From assembly GCA_007134725.1 (NCBI GenBank), contig SLKF01000023.1:1-12433 (forward strand): a DNA stretch of 12,433 bases, read 5' to 3'. This document shows, one piece after another, positions 577 to 11,474 of this stretch (position 1 is its first letter; every line of letters begins with the position of its first letter). The notes beneath the pieces were generated by a model. It made no database searches, was not told the origin of the DNA, and was given only the letters and a program-made list of their open reading frames with translations. Origin of the DNA: Clostridiales bacterium. Its GTDB lineage: Bacteria; Bacillota; Clostridia; Peptostreptococcales; T1SED10-28. Both the position numbers and the translations under genes were made by a program.

Positions 577-612
577 AACAAAAAAACTTCTTTGAGTCAA
601 AGAAGTTTTTGG
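577..612 (-). terminator. Intrinsic terminator for the DUF1538/PII operon (probably bidirectional)
   Basis: A perfect 13-bp inverted repeat, AAAAACTTCTTTG (582-594) and its complement (598-610), surrounds a 3-base loop. Read on the minus strand, the stem is followed by seven T (580-586 on the plus strand are A), so it suits the minus-strand operon whose last stop codon is at 721. On the plus strand it also ends in five T, so it could back up the terminator at 431-470. The rest of the gene-free stretch 390-720 shows only the small hairpin at 660-682. Confidence 0.8.
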
Positions 613-720: not shown

Positions 721-1506
721 TTACTGTATTCCATATACCTCATCAACAGACTGGACAAACATAATCCCCTTCCCAGCCTCAGCAATGCTGGATTTTTCTT
801 TGATGGCTTTTGTCACCTTCTCCGTGATATCCCTTTTAACCAGAATCATGACGATCTCTTTTTCCGGCTCGATATCAAAAGCAAAAAGCTTGCTGGTTTC
901 ATGAATTCCCGAACCTCGGGCATTAATCACCGTAGCCCCTTTGGCTCCCGATTCATTGGCTGCGTCCACCACTTCTTTAGCATTTCCACGATCCACAATT
1001 ACAAAAATCGAATGATACCTATCCATTTCCTCACCTCCACTGATGTTTTCTTCGGGCCTGACATTAGAACCGTACTTTGATCCGATAATTTGATTGACGG
1101 GAATCGAAAAAGCAATCCCGCTGTTGGGTTTATGAAACTTCAGTTTTTCCGTGACTTTCTTTAAAAACTCGGCTCCATGACTTTCCTTCCCTAAAACCAG
1201 AACAATTTCTTTTCGATAATCCGCCAGGGCTAAAAACTTTAAAATAGGATTTTGTGCGGTGCCTTTTCCCAGAATGACCGTTCCTCCGGGAATACCGCTT
1301 TCCTTAGCGATGTGAATTACTTTAGTGCCCAGTCCGTGGTGAACAATGACCACATGAAGTTTATATATTTCAGTTTGTATTGTGTTTTTCGATTCTTCAG
1401 ACTCTTTCCTGTCCATCGTATTCTTCGTCTCACTAGTATCATTCATTCCATTAGGCTTTTTTAAGCTTTTATCTTTCTTTGGAATTTTATGCTTTGTCAT
1501 TACCAT
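721..1506 (-). CDS. Tandem PII-like signalling protein (two PII-type domains)
   Basis: Two PII-like (GlnB-fold) units are seen: residues about 48-142 and 163-261. Both carry the same signature after helix 1, ESGIPGGTVILGKGT (69-83) and ESGAKGATVINARGSG (185-200), and a later strand rich in I/V (EIVLVLGKES, EIVMILVKRD). PII proteins are normally single-domain trimers of about 112 residues that bind ATP/ADP and small effectors and control transporters or enzymes; this one is a covalent pair of divergent copies. Residues 1-46 are a Lys/Ser/Glu-rich hydrophilic extension without a recognised domain. The start overlaps the end of the DUF1538 gene by 20 bases, implying translational coupling. An alternative ATG at 1500 (Met3) sits 9 bases after GGGGG and may be the true start. 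An internal ribosome site and ATG occur before domain 2 (Met161). The inferred role is control of the DUF1538 transporter. Confidence 0.82.
   Translation of the reverse strand: MVMTKHKIPKKDKSLKKPNGMNDTSETKNTMDRKESEESKNTIQTEIYKLHVVIVHHGLGTKVIHIAKESGIPGGTVILGKGTAQNPILKFLALADYRKEIVLVLGKESHGAEFLKKVTEKLKFHKPNSGIAFSIPVNQIIGSKYGSNVRPEENISGGEEMDRYHSIFVIVDRGNAKEVVDAANESGAKGATVINARGSGIHETSKLFAFDIEPEKEIVMILVKRDITEKVTKAIKEKSSIAEAGKGIMFVQSVDEVYGIQ
1024..1038 (-). promoter_or_regulatory. Internal ribosome binding site and ATG before the second PII domain
   Basis: Reading the minus strand, GGAGGTGAGGAA is followed directly by ATG (codon 161 of the tandem PII protein), giving 7 bases between GGAGG and ATG. 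This is as good as the sites before true starts in this window. Translation from here would yield a 101-residue single PII-like protein starting MDRYHSIFVIV, close to the usual PII length and N-terminus. It may be an active second start or a relic of a gene fusion; the bases also encode the linker Ser-Gly-Gly-Glu-Glu, so chance is possible. Confidence 0.5.
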
Positions 1507-2980
1507 CCACCCCCTTTTTCACGGTTTTTAATTTAAAGAATGTTCCCAGAATCTGCAGGGTGATAATAGGCATTAAGGCCACCATGGCAATCATGCCAAA
1601 CCCGTCTATTAGCACATCCGCGGTGGGATGGTTGTAGGCCGCCCCGTTAATAAATGCCAGGATAAAGGTAGCCGTCATAGGCCCTGTGGCCACCCCTCCC
1701 GCATCAAAGGCGATCCCGATAAAAAGTTTTGGCGTGATAAAAGTCAGTGCCAAAGCAATCATGTAGCCGATTAATAAGTAATGCCACAGCTCTATTCCAC
1801 TAACCACGATCCGAAGCAGAGATAGGGATATGGCTAGTCCTACCCCAAGGGCCAGTGCCCCAAGAACAATGTTTTTCTTTACATACCCGGAGGTGACGTC
1901 TTCAATTTGATGAGTTAAAACGTAGACCGCAGGTTCTGCTAAAATCGTGGCCACTCCGAGAATAAATCCAATCATAATTAAATAAAAGTAACTATCCAAA
2001 CCGACTAGATAGGCGCCGATTTGGCTGCCTACCGCCATAAATCCCGTATTTACACCGACCAAGAACAGGCTTAACCCGATCATGGCGTAGATAAAGCCCA
2101 GAGTCATTCTTCGCAGAGCATCTTTTTTAATGGGCCAGGTGAAACGGACCAGCAAAAAGATGGCAATCAAGGGTACAAAGACAAAAAGACTTTCTAAAAA
2201 TGCACCGGGGATGGCACTGATAAAAGCTCCCATTACGGAACCTTCCAGAGGGATCTCCACGATTTCCACTTCAGCAAAATCCTGAACCTCTGTAAAAAGA
2301 TTGAGAATCATCACGGAGATAACCGCTCCCACAGAGACGATGGCTACCAGCCCAAAACTGTCTTTTTCTGAGGCTTTGCTATCCTTTTTCATGGCGGTAA
2401 TTCCGAGAGACAGGGACAGAATAAAAGGCACCGCCAAGACCCCGGTGGTGGAGCCGGAACTGTCAAAGGCAATGGCTAGAAATTCCGGAGACGTAAAAAT
2501 ACCCAACAGAAAAATTACCCCGTAGGACGCCAGGAGAATAATATGTAAGGGAATATTATAAATTAATCGGAAAAATCCTAGAATCATAAAAATACCGATA
2601 CCCAATGATACCACCGTTAGAATTGTAAAACTGGAAATGACTCCGGCGGTTAGGGCGTCGATCTGATTGCCGAGAATCAACAATCCGGGCTCCGCGATAG
2701 ATATGATAAACCCTAAAATAAATGCAGCAACAATTACCAACCATAGTTTATTTTTCTTTGTAATCACAGAGCTAAGAAGAGACCCCAAAGGAGCAATTCC
2801 CAGATCCACTCCGATTAAAAAAAAGGTCAGTCCCAATAATATAAACACCGAACCCACCAAAAATTTTCCCATCAAATGATTATCTATAGGAACAATAGTC
2901 AGTCTAAGAATAATGACAATTAACGTAATGGGAAGTATGGCAAAGAATACTTCCTTGATTTTTTCACTGAAAATATTCAC
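1487..2980 (-). CDS. DUF1538 polytopic membrane protein (duplicated; UmpAB-like putative cation/proton antiporter)
   Basis: A 497-residue, very hydrophobic protein made of two homologous halves. Paired motifs are FLIGVDLGIAPLGS (54-67) with FLVGVNTGFMAVGS (306-319), IAEPG (95-99) with LAEPA (347-351), and AFDSSGSTTG (171-180) with AFDAGGVATG (424-433). The conserved acids Glu97/Glu349 and Asp173/Asp426 lie in membrane stretches and are good candidates for ion coupling. Each half is a DUF1538 domain. In Halomonas a DUF1538 pair named UmpAB was reported as a Na+(Li+,K+)/H+ antiporter; here both domains sit in one chain. That transport role is borrowed from memory of the family, not shown here. 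A hydrophilic patch near residues 197-208 and acidic residues near 231-246 separate the halves. The start is GTG, 6 bases after AGGAGG. The gene has its own promoter and overlaps the PII-like gene, which probably regulates it. Confidence 0.82.
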   Translation of the reverse strand: MNIFSEKIKEVFFAILPITLIVIILRLTIVPIDNHLMGKFLVGSVFILLGLTFFLIGVDLGIAPLGSLLSSVITKKNKLWLVIVAAFILGFIISIAEPGLLILGNQIDALTAGVISSFTILTVVSLGIGIFMILGFFRLIYNIPLHIILLASYGVIFLLGIFTSPEFLAIAFDSSGSTTGVLAVPFILSLSLGITAMKKDSKASEKDSFGLVAIVSVGAVISVMILNLFTEVQDFAEVEIVEIPLEGSVMGAFISAIPGAFLESLFVFVPLIAIFLLVRFTWPIKKDALRRMTLGFIYAMIGLSLFLVGVNTGFMAVGSQIGAYLVGLDSYFYLIMIGFILGVATILAEPAVYVLTHQIEDVTSGYVKKNIVLGALALGVGLAISLSLLRIVVSGIELWHYLLIGYMIALALTFITPKLFIGIAFDAGGVATGPMTATFILAFINGAAYNHPTADVLIDGFGMIAMVALMPIITLQILGTFFKLKTVKKGVDGNDKA

Positions 2981-3014: not shown

Positions 3015-3043
3015 ATTATAGGACAGTTCACCTACTTATGCAA
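3015..3043 (-). promoter_or_regulatory. Sigma-A-type promoter for the DUF1538-PII operon
   Basis: On the minus strand TTGCAT (3038-3043) and TATAAT (3015-3020) are separated by exactly 17 bases. Transcription would start near 3008, leaving about 28 bases before the GTG start at 2980, just enough for the ribosome site. It lies in the 83-base gap after the FMN-binding gene, so the DUF1538-PII pair can be expressed separately from it. Confidence 0.7.
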
Positions 3044-3697: not shown

Positions 3698-5086
3698 TTG
3701 AAAAAAATCCGATTTCCACACTCTTACGTGTTGATCTTTTACGTCATAGTTATTGTGACCCTGCTTACATATATTTTACCCGCCGGCAGTTTTGAACGGG
3801 CTGTGGATACGGAAACCGGCATCACTTATGTGGTCGCGGACTCCTTTCAAAAGCTGGATCGGAACCCCGTAACTCCCTTTAGCATGTTTACCGGGATTTT
3901 GGAAGGTATGCTGGACGCCGCCGATGTCATCTTTTTTGTATTAATTGTAGGAGGTGCCTTCGGAGTCATTCATAAAACCGGAGCCCTGACCATCTTCCTG
4001 GGCCATATCGCTCGGCTGAATCAGCGACGGGGAAAAATATTAATCATTTTGATTATGATTGTTTTTTCCTTATTCGGGACTTTTTTCGGCACCGCCGAGG
4101 AGGCCCTCCCCCTCTATCCCATTTTCATATCCGTGGCGCTTGCTCTGGGTTACGACGCTTTCACAGGAGTTGCCATGATTCTTCTAGGCACCGGGGCGGG
4201 CTTTGCTGCAGGGATATTTAACCCCTTTACCACCGGAGTTGCACAAATTTTAGCGGAACTGCCACTGTTTTCCGGGTACTGGTTTCGAATTTTAGCCTAT
4301 TTCCTTCTATTATTGCCCACAATATATTACGTTTTGCGCTATGTAAAAAAAATTGAACGGGACCCAAGCTCCAGTCTCACTTATGAAGGGGATCAATATC
4401 GAAATAAACAGTTGAACTTTGATAATATCCCGAAATTACAAAAAGAACATATCCGAGTCCTTCTGGTTATGGCCTTATCCATGATTTTTTTAATTTATAT
4501 CATCTCCTTTTGGGAGTACTCTTCCGCAAGAATGGCTGCGGTGTTTATCATCATGGGCATTCTATCCGGAATCGCAGCAAAGCTGGATTCCTCAGTGATC
4601 GCCTCGGAATTTATAAAGGGTTCGTCAAATATTGTTTACGGGGCCCTGATCATCGGTCTGGCTAGAGGAATTTCCGTCATCATGGAAAACGGGGATATTT
4701 TAGATTCTTTAATCTATTACCTGGCTACAAGCATTGAAGGTTTTGGGACCCTAGGCGTCGGTGTGGGTATGTTCCTTGTTCAAAGCTTCATAAACATCTT
4801 TATTTCATCAGGAAGCGGTCAAGCCGCTGCCGTAATTCCCATTATGAAATCCATTGGAGATCTAACGGATCTCAGTCGTCAAACCGTGGTGCTTGCCTAT
4901 CAGTTCGGAGACGGTTTTTCAAATATCATCAGTCCCACTTCCGGTTATTTTATGGCGGCCCTGGCCATTGGAAGAATCAACTGGAAAAAATGGGCAATCT
5001 GGGTGCTTCCCTTATTTCTTTATTGGTGTATTGCAGGGGTTTTTCTAATTATTTTGTCCATTCTTATACAACTAGGTCCGTACTAG
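3698..5086 (+). CDS. YfcC-family (DcuC-like) carrier, first copy
   Basis: A 462-residue integral membrane protein of the YfcC/DcuC group of ion-coupled transporters. Landmarks are LPAGSFER near residue 27, AEEALPLYP (133-141), NPFT (175-178), SGSGQAA (371-377) and QFGDGFSNIISPTSGYF (402-418). The repeated helical hairpins with SGSGQ and SPTSG motifs are expected to form the substrate pore. A hydrophilic loop near 214-253 splits the two membrane halves. YfcC relatives include amino-acid exchangers in streptococcal arginine deiminase operons, which also carry an M20 peptidase, so an amino acid or peptide substrate fits; dicarboxylates are an alternative. The start is TTG, 8 bases after AGGGAGG; no ATG nearby is better placed. 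It is followed after 26 bases by the ArsR-like gene and is about half identical by eye to the second YfcC copy. Confidence 0.85.
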   Translation: MKKIRFPHSYVLIFYVIVIVTLLTYILPAGSFERAVDTETGITYVVADSFQKLDRNPVTPFSMFTGILEGMLDAADVIFFVLIVGGAFGVIHKTGALTIFLGHIARLNQRRGKILIILIMIVFSLFGTFFGTAEEALPLYPIFISVALALGYDAFTGVAMILLGTGAGFAAGIFNPFTTGVAQILAELPLFSGYWFRILAYFLLLLPTIYYVLRYVKKIERDPSSSLTYEGDQYRNKQLNFDNIPKLQKEHIRVLLVMALSMIFLIYIISFWEYSSARMAAVFIIMGILSGIAAKLDSSVIASEFIKGSSNIVYGALIIGLARGISVIMENGDILDSLIYYLATSIEGFGTLGVGVGMFLVQSFINIFISSGSGQAAAVIPIMKSIGDLTDLSRQTVVLAYQFGDGFSNIISPTSGYFMAALAIGRINWKKWAIWVLPLFLYWCIAGVFLIILSILIQLGPY

Positions 5087-5112
5087 TACTATAAAATTAT
5101 TGGGGTGTTGAT

Positions 5113-5397
5113 ATGTCCGGAATAAATGAAAATGCCATAGATACCGAGGTTATGAAGGCCTTATCCGATGAAACCCGGGTGGATATCCTGTATATCATCG
5201 GGAATAGTGAAATCAATGTCAATGAAATAGCCAAAAACTGCAAAGTTTCACGCCCTACCATCTCGCATCATCTACAGATTATGAAGCGGGCGGGAATTTT
5301 AACGTCGAGAAAAAGCGGTAAGGAGATTTACTACTCCATTAACAAATACAAACTCACTTCCCTTGCAGAAACCATTCTTTCTTTTATTTCCTGGTAG
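5113..5397 (+). CDS. ArsR-type winged-helix regulator
   Basis: A 94-residue protein that is almost entirely a winged helix-turn-helix. It opens with MKALSDETRVDILYII (14-29), the usual ArsR helix, then NEIAKNCKVSRPTISHHLQIMKRAG as the DNA-reading helices (37-61), and a wing GKEIYYSIN (69-77). The metal-sensing ELCVCD motif of ArsR/SmtB sensors is replaced by INVNEIA, and the only cysteine is Cys43, so a metal ligand set is absent from this helix; the signal is more likely a metabolite or redox change. It lies 26 bases after the YfcC gene with GGGGTG before the ATG, so the two form an operon. It may control that operon and the M20-YfcC pair downstream. The family call is firm; the targets are inferred from position. 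Confidence 0.88.
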   Translation: MSGINENAIDTEVMKALSDETRVDILYIIGNSEINVNEIAKNCKVSRPTISHHLQIMKRAGILTSRKSGKEIYYSINKYKLTSLAETILSFISW

Positions 5398-5462
5398 TAA
5401 TTCCCTTGCTTTGAAAGTATTGGTGTGAATAAAATATCATTTCAGAAAATTTCATAAATTAG

Positions 5463-5478
5463 GTTGATAAACTTCAAC
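5463..5478. promoter_or_regulatory. Candidate operator between -35 and -10 of the M20 promoter
   Basis: GTTGA (5463-5467) and TCAAC (5474-5478) form an inverted repeat with a 6-base spacer. It covers the -35 box and part of the spacer, a repressor-like position. ArsR-type proteins bind such short palindromes and one is encoded immediately upstream. The link is inference; the half-sites are only 5 bp. Confidence 0.35.
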
Positions 5479-5492
5479 GGATAAAGTATAAT
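5464..5492 (+). promoter_or_regulatory. Sigma-A-type promoter upstream of the M20 hydrolase gene
   Basis: TTGATA (5464-5469) and TATAAT (5487-5492) are 17 bases apart, a near-consensus arrangement. Transcription would begin near 5499, about 90 bases before the ATG. A terminator-like hairpin begins only about 5 bases later, so its use for the M20 gene is uncertain. Confidence 0.65.
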
Positions 5493-5503
5493 CAGAATTA
5501 ACA

Positions 5504-5531
5504 TCGCAGTGGAGCCCATTGTGATTTTTTT
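5504..5531 (+). terminator. Terminator-like hairpin in front of the M20 gene
   Basis: TCGCAGTGG (5504-5512) pairs with CCATTGTGA (5516-5524) over 9 bp with two G-U wobbles and a 3-base loop, followed at once by seven T (5525-5531). It could end the YfcC-ArsR transcript, or be a very early attenuator for transcripts starting near 5499. Confidence 0.5.
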
Positions 5532-5588
5532 AAAAAGAACGCGTCGATATACTTAAACCTATCTAATTGTTAAGGAGGTGGAGAAATT

Positions 5589-6764
5589 ATGGAACAATGG
5601 ATGACTAAAGATGAAGTGATTCAACTAGCAGAAAAGCTGGTATCCATTGAAAGTCACAAGGCTTATGCAAAACAGGAATCGGAGATTGCAGGCTTTATTC
5701 AGGAACTCTTAGAAAAAGAAGGAATTTCCACAGAGATGGAAGAGGTGGAACCTCTGAGACCCAATGTTTACGGATTTCTCTCAGGTAAGGAAGATCAGCA
5801 CTATTTAATGTTTAACGGTCATACTGATACAGTGCCGGCCTTTAACATGGACTATCCCCCATTCAAACCCTTTATTAAAGACGGCAAACTATTTGGTCGG
5901 GGCTCCGTGGATATGAAAGGTGCTCTTGCCGCCATGCTTTCCGCTATGATTGCAGTTAAACGAAAAGGATCCATTTTGAAAAAAGGTGTCGTTTTCGCCG
6001 GTGTCATTGATGAAGAACAGGCCTGCAAAGGAACAGAACAGATTGTTCGAACCGGTAAGATTAAACCCAAACTTGCGGTAATCGGTGAACCCACAAATCT
6101 TGAAACCGCCATCGCCCATAAAGGGATGGAGTGGATTGAGGTGACCTTTAAAGGTCGAGCAACCCATGGAAGTCGTCCGAAAGAAGGCATCAATGCCATT
6201 TATCTGGCCAATGAATTCTTAAGCCTACTGAAAAATGAATTGGAACCCAAGATTGACCAAAAAACCTATCCCCTACTGGGTGCGGGAACCATCAATCCCG
6301 GCGTCATTAAAGGGGGCGACGATCCTAATATTGTCCCGGATCGATGCGTAGTACAAATGGATCGTCGTTATCTTCCCAGTGAAACCGTAAAAGAAGTCTA
6401 TCAGGAAATTGAAGATCTGGCCAAGAGGGTGATTGAAAAGCTTGGAGGGGATTTTTCCATTCGTCGGATGGCTGAAGAAACCGCAGCCCTTTACAACATG
6501 CCCCATAGCATAGACCCGGATCATATTCTTGTGACCGAGGCTCTACGGATTACCGAGGAGGTCACCAAGGTTAAAGGTGCGCCTGTAGCTTTCCCCGGAT
6601 GGAGTGATGGTGCTCAGCTCAGCAACAACATCGGCACCGAAGCTATTGTTATAGGACCAGGAGATATTTCCCAGGCCCATTCCAACGATGAATTTTGCAG
6701 CACGGATCAAATTTGGCAGGCAACACAGATTTACTTTGAAATGATTCAGTCTCTTTGTAAGTAA
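5589..6764 (+). CDS. M20-family metallo-hydrolase (ArgE/DapE/ACY1-type deacylase or peptidase)
   Basis: A 391-residue cytoplasmic enzyme with the full two-zinc active site of the M20 group. His78 and Asp80 lie in GHTDTVP, Asp108 in GRGSVDMKG, Glu142 (general base) and Glu143 in DEEQACKGTE, Glu167 in GEPT, and His374 in AHSNDEF. His193 in ATHGSRP sits in the inserted dimerisation (lid) domain, about 175-290. These enzymes cleave amide bonds of N-acetylornithine, N-succinyl-diaminopimelate, other N-acyl amino acids or dipeptides; the sequence alone does not tell which. No arginine or lysine biosynthesis genes are adjacent. Being 59 bases upstream of a YfcC carrier and downstream of another argues for catabolism of an imported compound. 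The start ATG is preceded by an ideal AAGGAGGTG (5572-5580). No signal peptide is seen. Confidence 0.87.
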   Translation: MEQWMTKDEVIQLAEKLVSIESHKAYAKQESEIAGFIQELLEKEGISTEMEEVEPLRPNVYGFLSGKEDQHYLMFNGHTDTVPAFNMDYPPFKPFIKDGKLFGRGSVDMKGALAAMLSAMIAVKRKGSILKKGVVFAGVIDEEQACKGTEQIVRTGKIKPKLAVIGEPTNLETAIAHKGMEWIEVTFKGRATHGSRPKEGINAIYLANEFLSLLKNELEPKIDQKTYPLLGAGTINPGVIKGGDDPNIVPDRCVVQMDRRYLPSETVKEVYQEIEDLAKRVIEKLGGDFSIRRMAEETAALYNMPHSIDPDHILVTEALRITEEVTKVKGAPVAFPGWSDGAQLSNNIGTEAIVIGPGDISQAHSNDEFCSTDQIWQATQIYFEMIQSLCK

Positions 6765-6785
6765 TCAACATTATTATTTCTAAAG

Positions 6786-6791
6786 TATAAT
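6786..6791 (+). promoter_or_regulatory. Possible -10 element between the M20 and second YfcC genes
   Basis: TATAAT occurs in AAAGTATAAT, the same ten bases as at the promoter before the M20 gene, but no good -35 lies 16-18 bases upstream. The second YfcC gene is therefore probably co-transcribed with the M20 gene, with a weak internal promoter as an alternative. Confidence 0.3.
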
Positions 6792-6823
6792 TTCTAATAA
6801 AAATATGAATATGGAGGTAGCAT

Positions 6824-8212
6824 ATGGCTAAATTAAAGATTCCTCATACTTATGTATTACTTTTCATGGTAATTGTTTTTGCAGTAATTATGACTTATGT
6901 TGTTCCTGCCGGAGAATTTGAACGAACCGAGGATCCGGAAACCGGAAGAACCATCGTTGTGGTTGACAGTTTTGAATACGTGGACCAAACTCCGGTCAGT
7001 CCCTTCGGTTTATTCGAATCCATTCCTAAAGGAATGGTTCAGGCAGGACTCATCATCTTTTTCGTATTAATGATCGGTGGTGCCTTTGGAATCATCCAAT
7101 CCACCGGTACCATTGACGCAGGGATCGGCACCGTGGTGAAAGCCATGGCCGGTAAAGAAAAATTAATCATCCCCATTGTCATGTTTATTTTCTCCTTAGC
7201 GGGAGCCATACTGGGAATTGCAGAAGAGGTTCTCCCCTTCTATCCCATTATGATCGCTTTGGCCCTGGCCTTAGGTTTTGACTCCATTACCGGAACCGCC
7301 ATGGTACTACTTGGCGCCGGTGCCGGTTTTGCAGGAGCCTTTGCAAACCCCTTTACCATCGGGATTGCCCAAGGAATTTCCGGACTCCCTCTTTTCTCGG
7401 GATTCGCTTTTCGGATGGTCACCTATGTAATCATCCTCAGTGTCACGATTCTCTATGTTTATCGCCATGCTTCCAAGGTTCAAAAGAACCCGGAAAGCAG
7501 CCCGACCTACGAGGATGACAAAAAGCGGCAGCATAAACTGGATCTTAGTGAATTAAAGGAAATGACCGGCAAACACAAGCGGGTATTTGGAGTTCTTATT
7601 GTAGGAATCGTATTCCTTGCTCTGGGTGTAGGCCTTTGGGGCTTTTACATCAACGAGTTAACCGCCCTATTCCTGATCATCGGGATTACCGCCGGACTGG
7701 CCGGTGGCCTAAAGCCCAACCAAATTGCGGAGGAATTCATTAAAGGAGCCCAGGAACTGGTTTATGGTGCGTTAATTATTGGACTTGCAACTACCATCAT
7801 GGTAGTTATGGAAGACGGAAATATTTTAGATACCACGATTTATACCTTAGCCAATCTGGTTGAAGGATTGCCTACGGTACTGAGTGGAATCGGAATGTTC
7901 TTTGTACAGACCTTAATTAACCTCTTTGTTCCCTCCGGAAGTGGACAGGCAGCAGTTTCCATGCCGATCATGGCTCCAATGGCCGATGTTGTGGGGATCA
8001 CCCGACAAAGTGCGGTACTTGCATTCCAATTCGGAGACGGTTTTACCAACGTAATCTCCCCGACCTCCGGTTATTTCATGGCCGCATTGGCCATCGCCGG
8101 AATCCGTTGGGAAGTATGGGCACGATGGATGCTCCCTCTGTTCCTTATCTGGACAGCTATCGGAGCGACTTTAGTGTCAATCTCCATTCTTATTGATTAC
8201 GGTCCATTCTAA
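6824..8212 (+). CDS. YfcC-family (DcuC-like) carrier, second copy
   Basis: A 462-residue membrane transporter of the same family and exactly the same length as the first copy. It shares VPAGEFER near residue 27, AEEVLPFYP, NPFT, SGSGQAA, and QFGDGFTNVISPTSGYF, with the same hydrophilic mid-loop. Differences concentrate in the loop around 214-255 and in several membrane helices. Identity is roughly one half by eye, so this is an old duplication or two separate acquisitions rather than a recent copy. It starts at ATG after GGAGGT (6813-6818), 59 bases downstream of the M20 gene, and likely supplies that enzyme's substrate or exports its product. Amino-acid or short acyl-amino-acid transport is inferred from context. 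A hairpin at 8288-8328 follows its stop codon. Confidence 0.85.
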   Translation: MAKLKIPHTYVLLFMVIVFAVIMTYVVPAGEFERTEDPETGRTIVVVDSFEYVDQTPVSPFGLFESIPKGMVQAGLIIFFVLMIGGAFGIIQSTGTIDAGIGTVVKAMAGKEKLIIPIVMFIFSLAGAILGIAEEVLPFYPIMIALALALGFDSITGTAMVLLGAGAGFAGAFANPFTIGIAQGISGLPLFSGFAFRMVTYVIILSVTILYVYRHASKVQKNPESSPTYEDDKKRQHKLDLSELKEMTGKHKRVFGVLIVGIVFLALGVGLWGFYINELTALFLIIGITAGLAGGLKPNQIAEEFIKGAQELVYGALIIGLATTIMVVMEDGNILDTTIYTLANLVEGLPTVLSGIGMFFVQTLINLFVPSGSGQAAVSMPIMAPMADVVGITRQSAVLAFQFGDGFTNVISPTSGYFMAALAIAGIRWEVWARWMLPLFLIWTAIGATLVSISILIDYGPF

Positions 8213-8284
8213 AACAACTTTACAAATTGAATTAATCATAAAATATCAATCAGCATAACTACTAAAATAGCATACGCGAAATAG

Positions 8285-8333
8285 AAAAACACCTCCCGAA
8301 CAGAGATCTTTTCTCCAGTGGAGGTGTTCTTCT
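8285..8333. terminator. Bidirectional terminator between the YfcC cluster and the GNAT operon
   Basis: AACACCTCC (8288-8296) and GGAGGTGTT (8320-8328) form a perfect 9-bp stem. The 23-base loop contains the small palindrome AGATCT. On the plus strand the stem is followed by CTTCTGTTTG; on the minus strand by TTTCTATTTC, so it can serve the convergent genes ending at 8212 and 8380. Apart from this hairpin the gap 8213-8379 shows nothing. Confidence 0.7.
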
Positions 8334-8379
8334 GTTTGATTTCACTTTTTTCGGACGCAACCTTGGGCCTAATCAGTGA

Positions 8380-8889
8380 TCAATCACACATCTTTGCCAA
8401 TCCTTGCAACTTGTCCCCTTCTACCCGGTATACGGTCCATTCGTCCATGGGGACCGCCCCCATTTCTTTATAAAAATCAATGGATGTGGTGTTCCAATCA
8501 AGGCACCACCAATCCAAACGTCCACAGTCTCTCTCCACTGCAATTTTTCCTAAAAAGGATAAGAGGGTTTTCCCATATCCCTTTCCCCGGTACTCCGGTT
8601 TTACGAAGAGATCCTCCAAATAAAGATTCGCTTTCCCTAAAAATGTGGAATAATTATGAAAAAAGAGAGCGAAACCTGCAGGTTCTCCAAGCTCTTCTCC
8701 AATAATCACTTCCGCCTGGTTTTTGTCAAACAGCGACACTCTCAACCCTTCTTCCGTTGCCACCACTTCATCCAGCATTTTTTCATACTCCGCTAAACCC
8801 TTGATAAATTCCAGTATCACAGGCACATCATCTTTTGTGGCAAAACGTATTTCAAATCCCTCAATATTGGTTTTATGAATCTCCATCAT
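8380..8889 (-). CDS. GNAT N-acetyltransferase, SSAT (polyamine/thialysine) type
   Basis: A 169-residue GNAT-fold protein. It shows FEIRFATKDDVPVILEFIKGLAEYEKM (12-38) as the first strand and helices, LYLEDLFVKPEYRGKGYGK (89-107) with the acetyl-CoA pyrophosphate-binding loop RGKGYG, and LDWNTTSIDFYKEMGA (120-135) with the tyrosine expected to act as general acid. The LAEYEK and YLEDLFV pieces match the spermidine/spermine and thialysine acetyltransferase branch (SAT1/SAT2), so the likely reaction is acetyl transfer from acetyl-CoA to a primary amine. The exact amine is not determined. Its start (ATG after GGGAGGACGGAA) overlaps the end of the large acidic protein gene by 17 bases, so the two are translated from one mRNA. 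There is a second Met directly after the first. Confidence 0.85.
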   Translation of the reverse strand: MMEIHKTNIEGFEIRFATKDDVPVILEFIKGLAEYEKMLDEVVATEEGLRVSLFDKNQAEVIIGEELGEPAGFALFFHNYSTFLGKANLYLEDLFVKPEYRGKGYGKTLLSFLGKIAVERDCGRLDWWCLDWNTTSIDFYKEMGAVPMDEWTVYRVEGDKLQGLAKMCD

Positions 8890-11443
8890 TTCCGTCCTCC
8901 CTTCCCCGAATTAACGCAGGAATAAAGTCTTGTAGATCAAACACCATCATTCCCCGTTCATCCCGGTAAAAAATATGTTCATTTTCGTGATTGATATAAA
9001 GGTCCTCGTAGCTCCATAAGGGGGTAGTTCCGCTTTCATTACTATCGTCACTAAAATGTCTTAAAAAATTGTTCATGGAAAGTCCGCCGAAATTGTTTTC
9101 AATCAATAGATCCCTGGTTTTCCGGCTATAGTACATCCCGCCGGGAGCATCGATTAAGGATCCGTGAAGCAGACTATCCATTGAAACGCTAAAGTAATTC
9201 CCGGCCTCGCTCTCAAGGGTTTCATCGTAATATTCTATTTCTTGAGCATAGCCTTCACTTATGAGTTCTTCAATGGAGCTCACTTCCATCAATTCCTCTA
9301 TTTCCTGTAAGGCATCGTAAGATATGTCCAGCAGGTGTAGATGCTTTTGTCTTGAGTCCTGTTCCTGGAGTTCTTTTGCAAGGATAAACAAATCATTCTC
9401 TTTTGAATAGCTCAGGGCAATTCTTCCCTGATCTATGGAATGGTTCACTTCTAAAACCGGTTCCAGAATGCCTTCCTTATCCCTTACAATCATACTTTTA
9501 TCTCTCAGAATACTTCCATCGGAAAGGCCAAGGATTTCCAGGAAATAATAGCCCTGTTTCATTGGATAAAAGCGAAAAGTCTCTTCGTACACACCGCCAT
9601 ATTCATGCATTTCATAAGTGGGGTCCAACGCTTTCGTTAACCCTGACATTTGAAACGATCCCTCTTCTAAATCCAGCTCCCATAGGTTTCCTTCTTCGGT
9701 AACAATCAGTAATCGATCTCCATCAATAGATTCCACCTGATCGATCCGGACTCCCTGTAACGCTTCTGGAATTTGATCCCGGTCTTTCATAGCTTCATTT
9801 TGAAAGTTATAGATCCCTAAAGAAGATTCCGGTGTGACTCCGTCTTCCAACATGGTCATAGTAGGGTATACCAGCATTAGTCCATGCTGGCGACTTAAAA
9901 AATATCCGCCGCTCATGTTTTCTTCAAAAAATATTACTTCTTCCGGGGTATTTTGACTGTGATTTTCTATCTTCACGGCGAAGTTTCGATACATTTCATC
10001 GTCTTCATGGGTTTTAACGGTATAAACCATTTCATTATATAGTACAACATCTTCAGTGTAATTAATGAATTCCGGCTCCATCTCCGGGGTTATAGCTGGG
10101 TGAAGGATAAACCCATCAGTTCCTTTTTCCACGATCCAGATTTTTTCCTCAATAGATTTATCTGTAATAACATAATAAGTCCCGTGGTTATCAATCTGAT
10201 AGTCTCGGTATTCTTCTATCTCGGGAAATAAAATCACCGGATATTCATCCACTAAAATCACTTCATCCTTCAGGGTTCCGGTTTCAAAATCATAGGTTTG
10301 AAAAATCAGTTCCTGGTTTTCGGAGAATACAATAGCAATTTCATCAGAATGAGCTGCCACACTTAAGGGATTTTTATCATTAAATTCATTTATCCAGCGA
10401 GGTTCCGCCCTCTCCAGTAGATGATCAATCTGGGTGCTTAGGTAATAGCGTTTAAGAGACTCGAAATTTAACCGGTCGATTCGAAAAACCCCTTCGGTAT
10501 CAACAAATTCTAACATAAGATCTTCCGGGTTGAGACCGCGGTATCGAAGTTCATAACCGAAGTGATCATCCGTCGGTCTCTGATATTCTCTAAACTCCAC
10601 GGTGTGCACCGCCGCATTTCTCTTTGCCTTCTCTTCGATTTCCTCAAGCACTACATTCATTAACTCTTCCCGGTTGTTAATCTCTCCCCGATGACTCCGG
10701 TAGGTTTTCTCGACGGTTAAATAATCCAGCTCTTCGTCTCTGTAAAAACCATTAAATGACATGGTTAGTTGGTAAATATATCCATCGGAACTCTTGTGAT
10801 AATTAAAATCGAAATCATGAAAGAAACCATCCTCTTCTAAGGTTTCCACCACTTCCTTTGCCAAGGACCCCTCGGGAAGCTCATCGGTGCTGACGGTAAA
10901 ACCCATGTACTCCGTCATTCGTTGTAGATCTTCTGAAATATAGGTTGTAGGGTTTCTTGGAATGACAAAAAAGAAAGCCTCGGGATTTTGTGTTTGCCAG
11001 GTTCCTCTACCCTGCTTTACGATCCGAATTTCCTCAGGAAGGACCATGCTCTCTCTTTCGGCACTTTCCAAAGCATCTTTATATATTCGATTTACAGCCC
11101 TTTCAATGGAATTCTCTTCCCAAACCTCTTGCCAGATCACCTCTTCGTACAAATGGTCATAGATATCCGAAAGCCTTGGCCATGATAATATCACTTCATA
11201 GGATATTTCATCCCTTCCACTGTTTACTTCTATTAGCTCTTGAATCTCTATAAGCTCCACAAGATCCGCATCGTATTCCGCGGCCATTTTTTCTTTTGCT
11301 TCCTCAAAAGCACTTTCTATGGCTTCATTTTTTGCCGCAGCATCTCCTGTCCGACTGATGTATATACTCCCTATTACTGCTGCGATCAGCAACACAGCCA
11401 CAACCCCTAAAAACCATTTAACTTCTTTATTGTTATCTTTCAT
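8873..11443 (-). CDS. Large acidic membrane-anchored exported protein of unknown function
   Basis: I do not recognise this 856-residue protein. Residues 1-9 are charged, 10-29 form one hydrophobic helix (WFLGVVAVLLIAAVIGSIYI), and the rest is hydrophilic and presumably outside the cell, so it is a type II-like anchored protein. Residues about 37-110 are Glu-rich and helical. The region about 350-790 alternates short beta-like strands with turns (for example IAIVFSENQELIFQTYDFETG, RLLIVTEEGNLWELDLEEG), suggesting a beta-propeller-like sensor or binding module. Asp and Glu are very frequent and I see no cysteine. The frame extends 9 codons upstream to a TTG at 11470, but ATG at 11443 is chosen because AAGGGGG precedes it; the TTG has no ribosome site. 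Its stop lies inside the GNAT gene start, implying coupling. The overlap with an amine acetyltransferase does not explain its job. Confidence 0.7.
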   Translation of the reverse strand: MKDNNKEVKWFLGVVAVLLIAAVIGSIYISRTGDAAAKNEAIESAFEEAKEKMAAEYDADLVELIEIQELIEVNSGRDEISYEVILSWPRLSDIYDHLYEEVIWQEVWEENSIERAVNRIYKDALESAERESMVLPEEIRIVKQGRGTWQTQNPEAFFFVIPRNPTTYISEDLQRMTEYMGFTVSTDELPEGSLAKEVVETLEEDGFFHDFDFNYHKSSDGYIYQLTMSFNGFYRDEELDYLTVEKTYRSHRGEINNREELMNVVLEEIEEKAKRNAAVHTVEFREYQRPTDDHFGYELRYRGLNPEDLMLEFVDTEGVFRIDRLNFESLKRYYLSTQIDHLLERAEPRWINEFNDKNPLSVAAHSDEIAIVFSENQELIFQTYDFETGTLKDEVILVDEYPVILFPEIEEYRDYQIDNHGTYYVITDKSIEEKIWIVEKGTDGFILHPAITPEMEPEFINYTEDVVLYNEMVYTVKTHEDDEMYRNFAVKIENHSQNTPEEVIFFEENMSGGYFLSRQHGLMLVYPTMTMLEDGVTPESSLGIYNFQNEAMKDRDQIPEALQGVRIDQVESIDGDRLLIVTEEGNLWELDLEEGSFQMSGLTKALDPTYEMHEYGGVYEETFRFYPMKQGYYFLEILGLSDGSILRDKSMIVRDKEGILEPVLEVNHSIDQGRIALSYSKENDLFILAKELQEQDSRQKHLHLLDISYDALQEIEELMEVSSIEELISEGYAQEIEYYDETLESEAGNYFSVSMDSLLHGSLIDAPGGMYYSRKTRDLLIENNFGGLSMNNFLRHFSDDSNESGTTPLWSYEDLYINHENEHIFYRDERGMMVFDLQDFIPALIRGREDGNDGDS

Positions 11444-11474
11444 AAAATCCCCCTTCTGCCTCGTTATCAAATGT

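Follow-up and report, generated by a model that had tools for sequence, protein, structure and literature searches.

Locus organization

The window analyzed here is a 12,433-nucleotide contig (SLKF01000023.1, assembly GCA_007134725.1) of a Clostridiales bacterium whose genome is 2.06 Mb and ca. 80% complete. On its minus strand, the gene for a duplicated DUF1538 membrane protein runs into the start of a gene for a protein with two PII-like domains (Table 1). This two-gene pairing is real and confirms an earlier observation: the original prediction, made from the DNA letters alone, had described a duplicated DUF1538 gene whose stop overlaps the start of a double PII-like gene, and both the reading frames and the Pfam matches bear this out. 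The single promoter and single terminator that it proposed are credible, because the TTGCAT-17-TATAAT promoter is invariant in four species and a hairpin and T-run lie 3' of the PII gene; a consensus promoter scan did not list this promoter. For the PII start codon, ATG 1500 appears to be better spaced from GGGGGTGG than ATG 1506.

Table 1. Features of the DUF1538-PII locus (window coordinates).
Feature	Position	Strand	Evidence
Membrane protein with two DUF1538 domains (497 aa; GTG start preceded by AAGGAGGGG)	1487..2980	minus	PF07556, 1.6e-126; AF2 pLDDT 87.4
DUF1538 half 1, residues 1-240, N-terminus predicted inside	2261..2980	minus	PF07556 match 2297-2929; loop charges
DUF1538 half 2, residues 244-480, N-terminus predicted outside	1541..2251	minus	PF07556 match 1541-2164; loop charges
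Tandem PII-like protein (259 aa with ATG 1500 as start, 261 aa with ATG 1506)	721..1500	minus	PF00543; AF2 pLDDT 80.1
PII-like domain 1 (residues 45-146) with altered T-loop motif	1063..1368	minus	
PII-like domain 2, residues 162-259, motif NARGSGIHETSKLF...IEPEKE, without C-loop	724..1017	minus	
DUF1538 stop overlapping the PII start region	1487..1506	minus	reading frames
Promoter TTGCAT-17-TATAAT, 5' of DUF1538	3015..3043	minus	identical in 4/4 species aligned
Terminator-like hairpin and T-run, 3' of PII gene	582..610	minus	signal scan

The membrane protein passes the DUF1538 model (PF07556) in two stretches, with 420.1 bits against a cut-off of 22.6, and its closest named relative among the matches listed, from Isachenkonia alkalipeptolytica, is 89% identical. 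Acidic residues occupy matching places of the two halves and are invariant across 112 sequences (E97/E349 and D173/D426). A fold search with the DUF1538 model gave no fold assignment; in the comparison with elevator (hairpin) transporters, matches were weak only. Pfam gives no listed link between the DUF1538 protein and SbtA.

Co-occurrence of the DUF1538 and PII genes

In a scan of genome contigs, a PII gene lies directly 3' of DUF1538 in 79 of 80 loci, the exception being L042; the 80 are the most similar of 400 confirmed DUF1538 loci, and the count includes one locus whose PII gene is cut by the contig end (L079) and one in which it spans two frames (L090). Because these loci are the most similar ones, we also drew 249 genomes evenly from one phylum, 84 of which have DUF1538. 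Strong matches to a tandem-PII profile were found in 83 of these 84 genomes vs. none of the 165 without DUF1538, and in the remaining genome (G061) the DUF1538 gene is itself broken by six internal stops. Strong here means at least 60 bits; this line was drawn once the scores had been seen and was placed in the gap under 62.3. Below it come matches of 53.2 (G054, which has no DUF1538), 44.3 (G114) and 40.7 (G118), and then values of 31.4 or less. Computed from coordinates, 112 of the 115 strong PII places are within 1000 bases of a DUF1538 place (exceptions: G223:C77, G107:C13 and G158:C293).

The pair is also carried on plasmids. All nine plasmid records with DUF1538 have an adjoining PII gene, seven by annotation and two (L130 and L131) by profile, and three of the nine, from two genera, are Alphaproteobacterial. 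Around the 80 loci, 178 of the 289 flanking genes are singletons and the largest cluster has six members, leaving no third conserved neighbor among them. Thus, DUF1538 and PII are kept together across many differing surroundings and form a near-obligate module. The original prediction had named an unconserved neighborhood as the outcome that would overturn it; the survey found a conserved one and strongly supports the coupling of the two genes, more firmly than had been claimed.

Several loci depart from the simple pair. One genome (G223) carries a tandem PII (L188, 2392-3114, G223:C77; also L132) on a different contig from its DUF1538 gene. In a close relative (L185, 2027-3513; G002), DUF1538 is truncated and internally deleted while the PII frame is still open, possibly through decay or an assembly fault. 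Two consecutive DUF1538-PII cassettes are found in L086 and L118, the second of them only partly seen in L118, and L033 has two tandem PIIs one after the other (7484-9001). Near the module in L035, L071 and L075, two of them titled Acholeplasmataceae and one a Bacillota metagenome-assembled genome, a cyclic di-AMP riboswitch lies 5' of a divergent gene for a membrane protein that, by eye, resembles a CPA-type exchanger.

Charge bias and predicted topology of DUF1538

We aligned 279 DUF1538 units and counted lysine plus arginine (K+R) in the eight loops around the seven helices, with the loop bounds and the in/out rule set on the window protein's own halves and independently of the pairs and singles. 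The K+R bias of the window protein is +9 in half 1 and -11 in half 2. Among fused proteins, the first halves average +8.55 (112/112 positive) and the second halves -8.86 (112/112 negative); among split pairs, the first members average +4.35 (23/23 positive) and the second -6.78 (23/23 negative). Single DUF1538 proteins average +0.33 and range from -2 to +2 (n = 9, representing about six lineages, since three pairs are 77-85% alike). When the first loop is kept fixed, there are 35 ways of marking four of the eight as "in"; of these, alternating labels separate both data sets best.

According to a review of the SMR family, singleton bias is centered at zero, with 3% beyond +/-2, and more than 95% of adjacent pairs have opposite bias (PMC9574504; here and below, statements from cited papers refer to the parts of them available). 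The near-zero singles and the opposite biases of paired and fused halves show that DUF1538 carries the charge signature of a dual-topology family. The opposite half biases and near-zero singles together suggest a probable inverted-repeat architecture for the window protein, its N- and C-termini both being cytosolic; by the same signature, split pairs such as UmpA and UmpB would be antiparallel partners, and the single form would insert both ways. This predicted antiparallel topology, added by the present analysis, was absent from the original prediction. DUF1538 resembles SMR/EmrE and DUF606 in its near-zero singles and opposite pairs, and DUF606 also in having fused forms (PMC9574504, PMC3962082); unlike them, its unit is larger, with seven helices, and has a dedicated PII partner.

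PII domain number and duplication

To count domains we used 79 complete units from 73 genomes, having dropped five units cut by contig ends and excluded 11 of the 84 DUF1538 genomes, which had no listed place. A fused DUF1538 occurs with a tandem PII in 42 units and with two single PIIs in one; a split pair occurs with a tandem PII in 11, with two single PIIs in five and with one single PII in nine. Each of the nine single DUF1538 units has one PII, and of the last two units one has no PII and one is odd. As domain totals (DUF1538, PII), 59 units are 2,2; nine are 1,1; nine are 2,1; one is 2,0 (G223, with its PII on another contig) and one is 3,2 (L148, apparently a frame-broken gene). Thus, the number of PII domains tracks that of DUF1538 domains, mostly but not always, given the nine two-domain units with one PII. 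This matching, too, is an addition to the original prediction.

In a PII tree built from a short alignment, with 33 of 106 inner branches open, first- and second-position domains mostly separate from each other, with a few exceptions. Because the domains sort by position whether they are fused or separate, the tree points to an earlier duplication of PII and a later fusion that probably took place more than once. The nine PIIs that accompany single DUF1538 units cluster together (99/98); L099, a tenth row with this label, is a contig-cut pair.

The PII-like protein

The tandem PII-like protein has 666 homologs, the best 120 of which were listed. It belongs to the PII superfamily by its Pfam P-II score of 47.9 bits, against a cut-off of 25, over residues 167-260 only; its N-terminal half has no Pfam match. 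The predicted structure has a ferredoxin-like PII fold in both halves, and structure comparison places the N-terminal domain of the model nearest to SbtB. The window protein is not itself an SbtB, since it ends just after the YGIQ strand without a CGPxGC loop and its neighbor is DUF1538, not SbtA. An N-terminal Lys/Ser-rich extension of ca. 40 residues (1369-1500) is missing from most listed relatives, which are ca. 220 residues long.

Canonical GlnB and GlnK proteins have a modified tyrosine at the T-loop tip, a B-loop lysine and a C-loop. Aligned with E. coli GlnK, the window protein lacks the tyrosine-bearing T-loop tip, the lysine of the B-loop GDGK and the C-loop RTGE. Judged by this alignment, the residues for canonical ATP and 2-oxoglutarate binding and for uridylylation are missing, and because of this the gating by adenine nucleotide that the original prediction proposed is unsupported. 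Its wider analogy with the PII-transporter pairs GlnK-AmtB and SbtB-SbtA remains reasonable, the N-terminal domain of the model being nearest to SbtB. In domain 2, a polar cluster (R195, G196, G198, E201, E211, E213 and K214) is invariant over 117 rows. The motif G-x-[HNS]-E is present in just 4 of 39 first domains vs. 27 of 42 second domains of sampled tandems.

Proposed function of the module

The antiporter UmpAB of Halomonas zhaodongensis is a heterodimer that exchanges Na+(Li+,K+) for H+ (PMC5484666). Like the window locus, it belongs to the DUF1538 Pfam family and has overlapping genes and seven predicted helices per unit, and two DUF1538 units are needed for its full function (PMC5484666). 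In the text of that paper, a search for PII, topology, antiparallel and inverted found none of these terms. DUF1538 also appears in a table on genes for pH adaptation in a study modeling growth pH (PMC13255231). In both GlnK-AmtB and SbtA-SbtB, a PII protein plugs or clamps the cytosolic side of the transporter (PMC10710835, PMC8352866).

We favor, as the probable reading, a UmpAB-type cation/proton antiporter whose cytosolic side is gated by a PII-like protein dedicated to it. DUF1538 would be a secondary transporter of 7+7 helices arranged as an inverted repeat, and its likeliest activity is UmpAB-like cation/proton antiport; the window protein would be the fused form of a family that, by charge balance, also exists as oppositely oriented pairs and dual-topology singles. 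The tandem PII would act as its dedicated regulator, placing two ferredoxin-like domains on a cytosolic face built of non-equivalent loops from the two antiparallel halves; the two non-identical PII domains could meet these loops. Its short T-loop may clamp the carrier in one state and release it on a metabolite signal, presumably by reading a small ligand without the canonical PII residues. We infer the topology, the docking, the clamping, the ligand and the transported ion of the module, and the antiport role of the window protein is carried over from UmpAB; that role is favored because of the UmpAB assays and the invariant acids at matching places of both halves.

The locus also differs from UmpAB: the window protein falls far below the UmpA and UmpB equivalog cut-offs (171.9 vs. 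490 bits for NF041627; 155.1 vs. 500 bits for NF041628), and its units are fused and followed by a PII gene, whereas those of UmpAB are separate. Like SbtA-SbtB, the locus has a PII-like gene beside what is probably an inverted-repeat transporter, but its PII is a tandem protein without the CGPxGC loop found in some SbtBs (PMC8352866); like GlnK-AmtB, it pairs PII and transporter in an operon, but without the GlnK residues noted above, and AmtB is trimeric.

It is unlikely that the tandem PII is instead a structural or assembly subunit that stabilizes the antiparallel pair without sensing metabolites. The missing ligand residues, the scarcity of G-x-[HNS]-E in first domains, a near-obligate presence that would be unusual for an optional regulator, and a PII number that follows DUF1538 number all fit such a subunit; however, UmpAB functioned in E. 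coli without added PII (PMC5484666), and the conserved polar cluster of domain 2 is what would be expected of a binding site. A module that is PII-gated but moves a substrate other than Na+, K+ or H+, such as an organic anion, a metabolite or a metal, seems rather improbable, as the invariant acids and the UmpAB assays favor cations. That PII regulates some other target, for example in nitrogen metabolism, and is merely co-transcribed with DUF1538 is very improbable: PII proteins do have many soluble targets, and the PII of G223 is unlinked to DUF1538, but no genome without DUF1538 has a strong match, the canonical nitrogen-signaling residues are absent and there is no conserved third gene.

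Beyond the PII-gated antiporter itself, PII may have co-evolved with the transporter as it passed from single to opposed pair to fused repeat, duplicating and fusing in parallel, and its two domains would now sense the two unlike halves of a single cytosolic face as a pseudo-two-fold rather than a three-fold clamp. We put this forward only tentatively; if true, it would extend PII control to a non-trimeric transporter. The path from single through pair to fused inverted repeat becomes directly testable here, with the PII duplication as a second record.

A literature search that left subscription papers largely uncovered found no description of an antiparallel DUF1538 with number-matched PII; "DUF1538" was not found together with "P-II family nitrogen regulator" and was rarely mentioned at all. 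The near-obligate PII-transporter module rests on a family with charges suggestive of an antiparallel fold, and the member studied so far is reported as heterodimeric. For two anonymous gene families, the module supplies a partner and a joint role open to testing, and it suggests a novel mode of ion-transport regulation.

Other genes in the window

Elsewhere in the window, positions 8873-11470 encode a protein of 865 residues for which Pfam gives no match at E 0.05. Two DcuC-family carriers flank genes for an ArsR-type regulator and an M20 peptidase at 3698-8212, perhaps as a cluster for peptide or amino-acid use.
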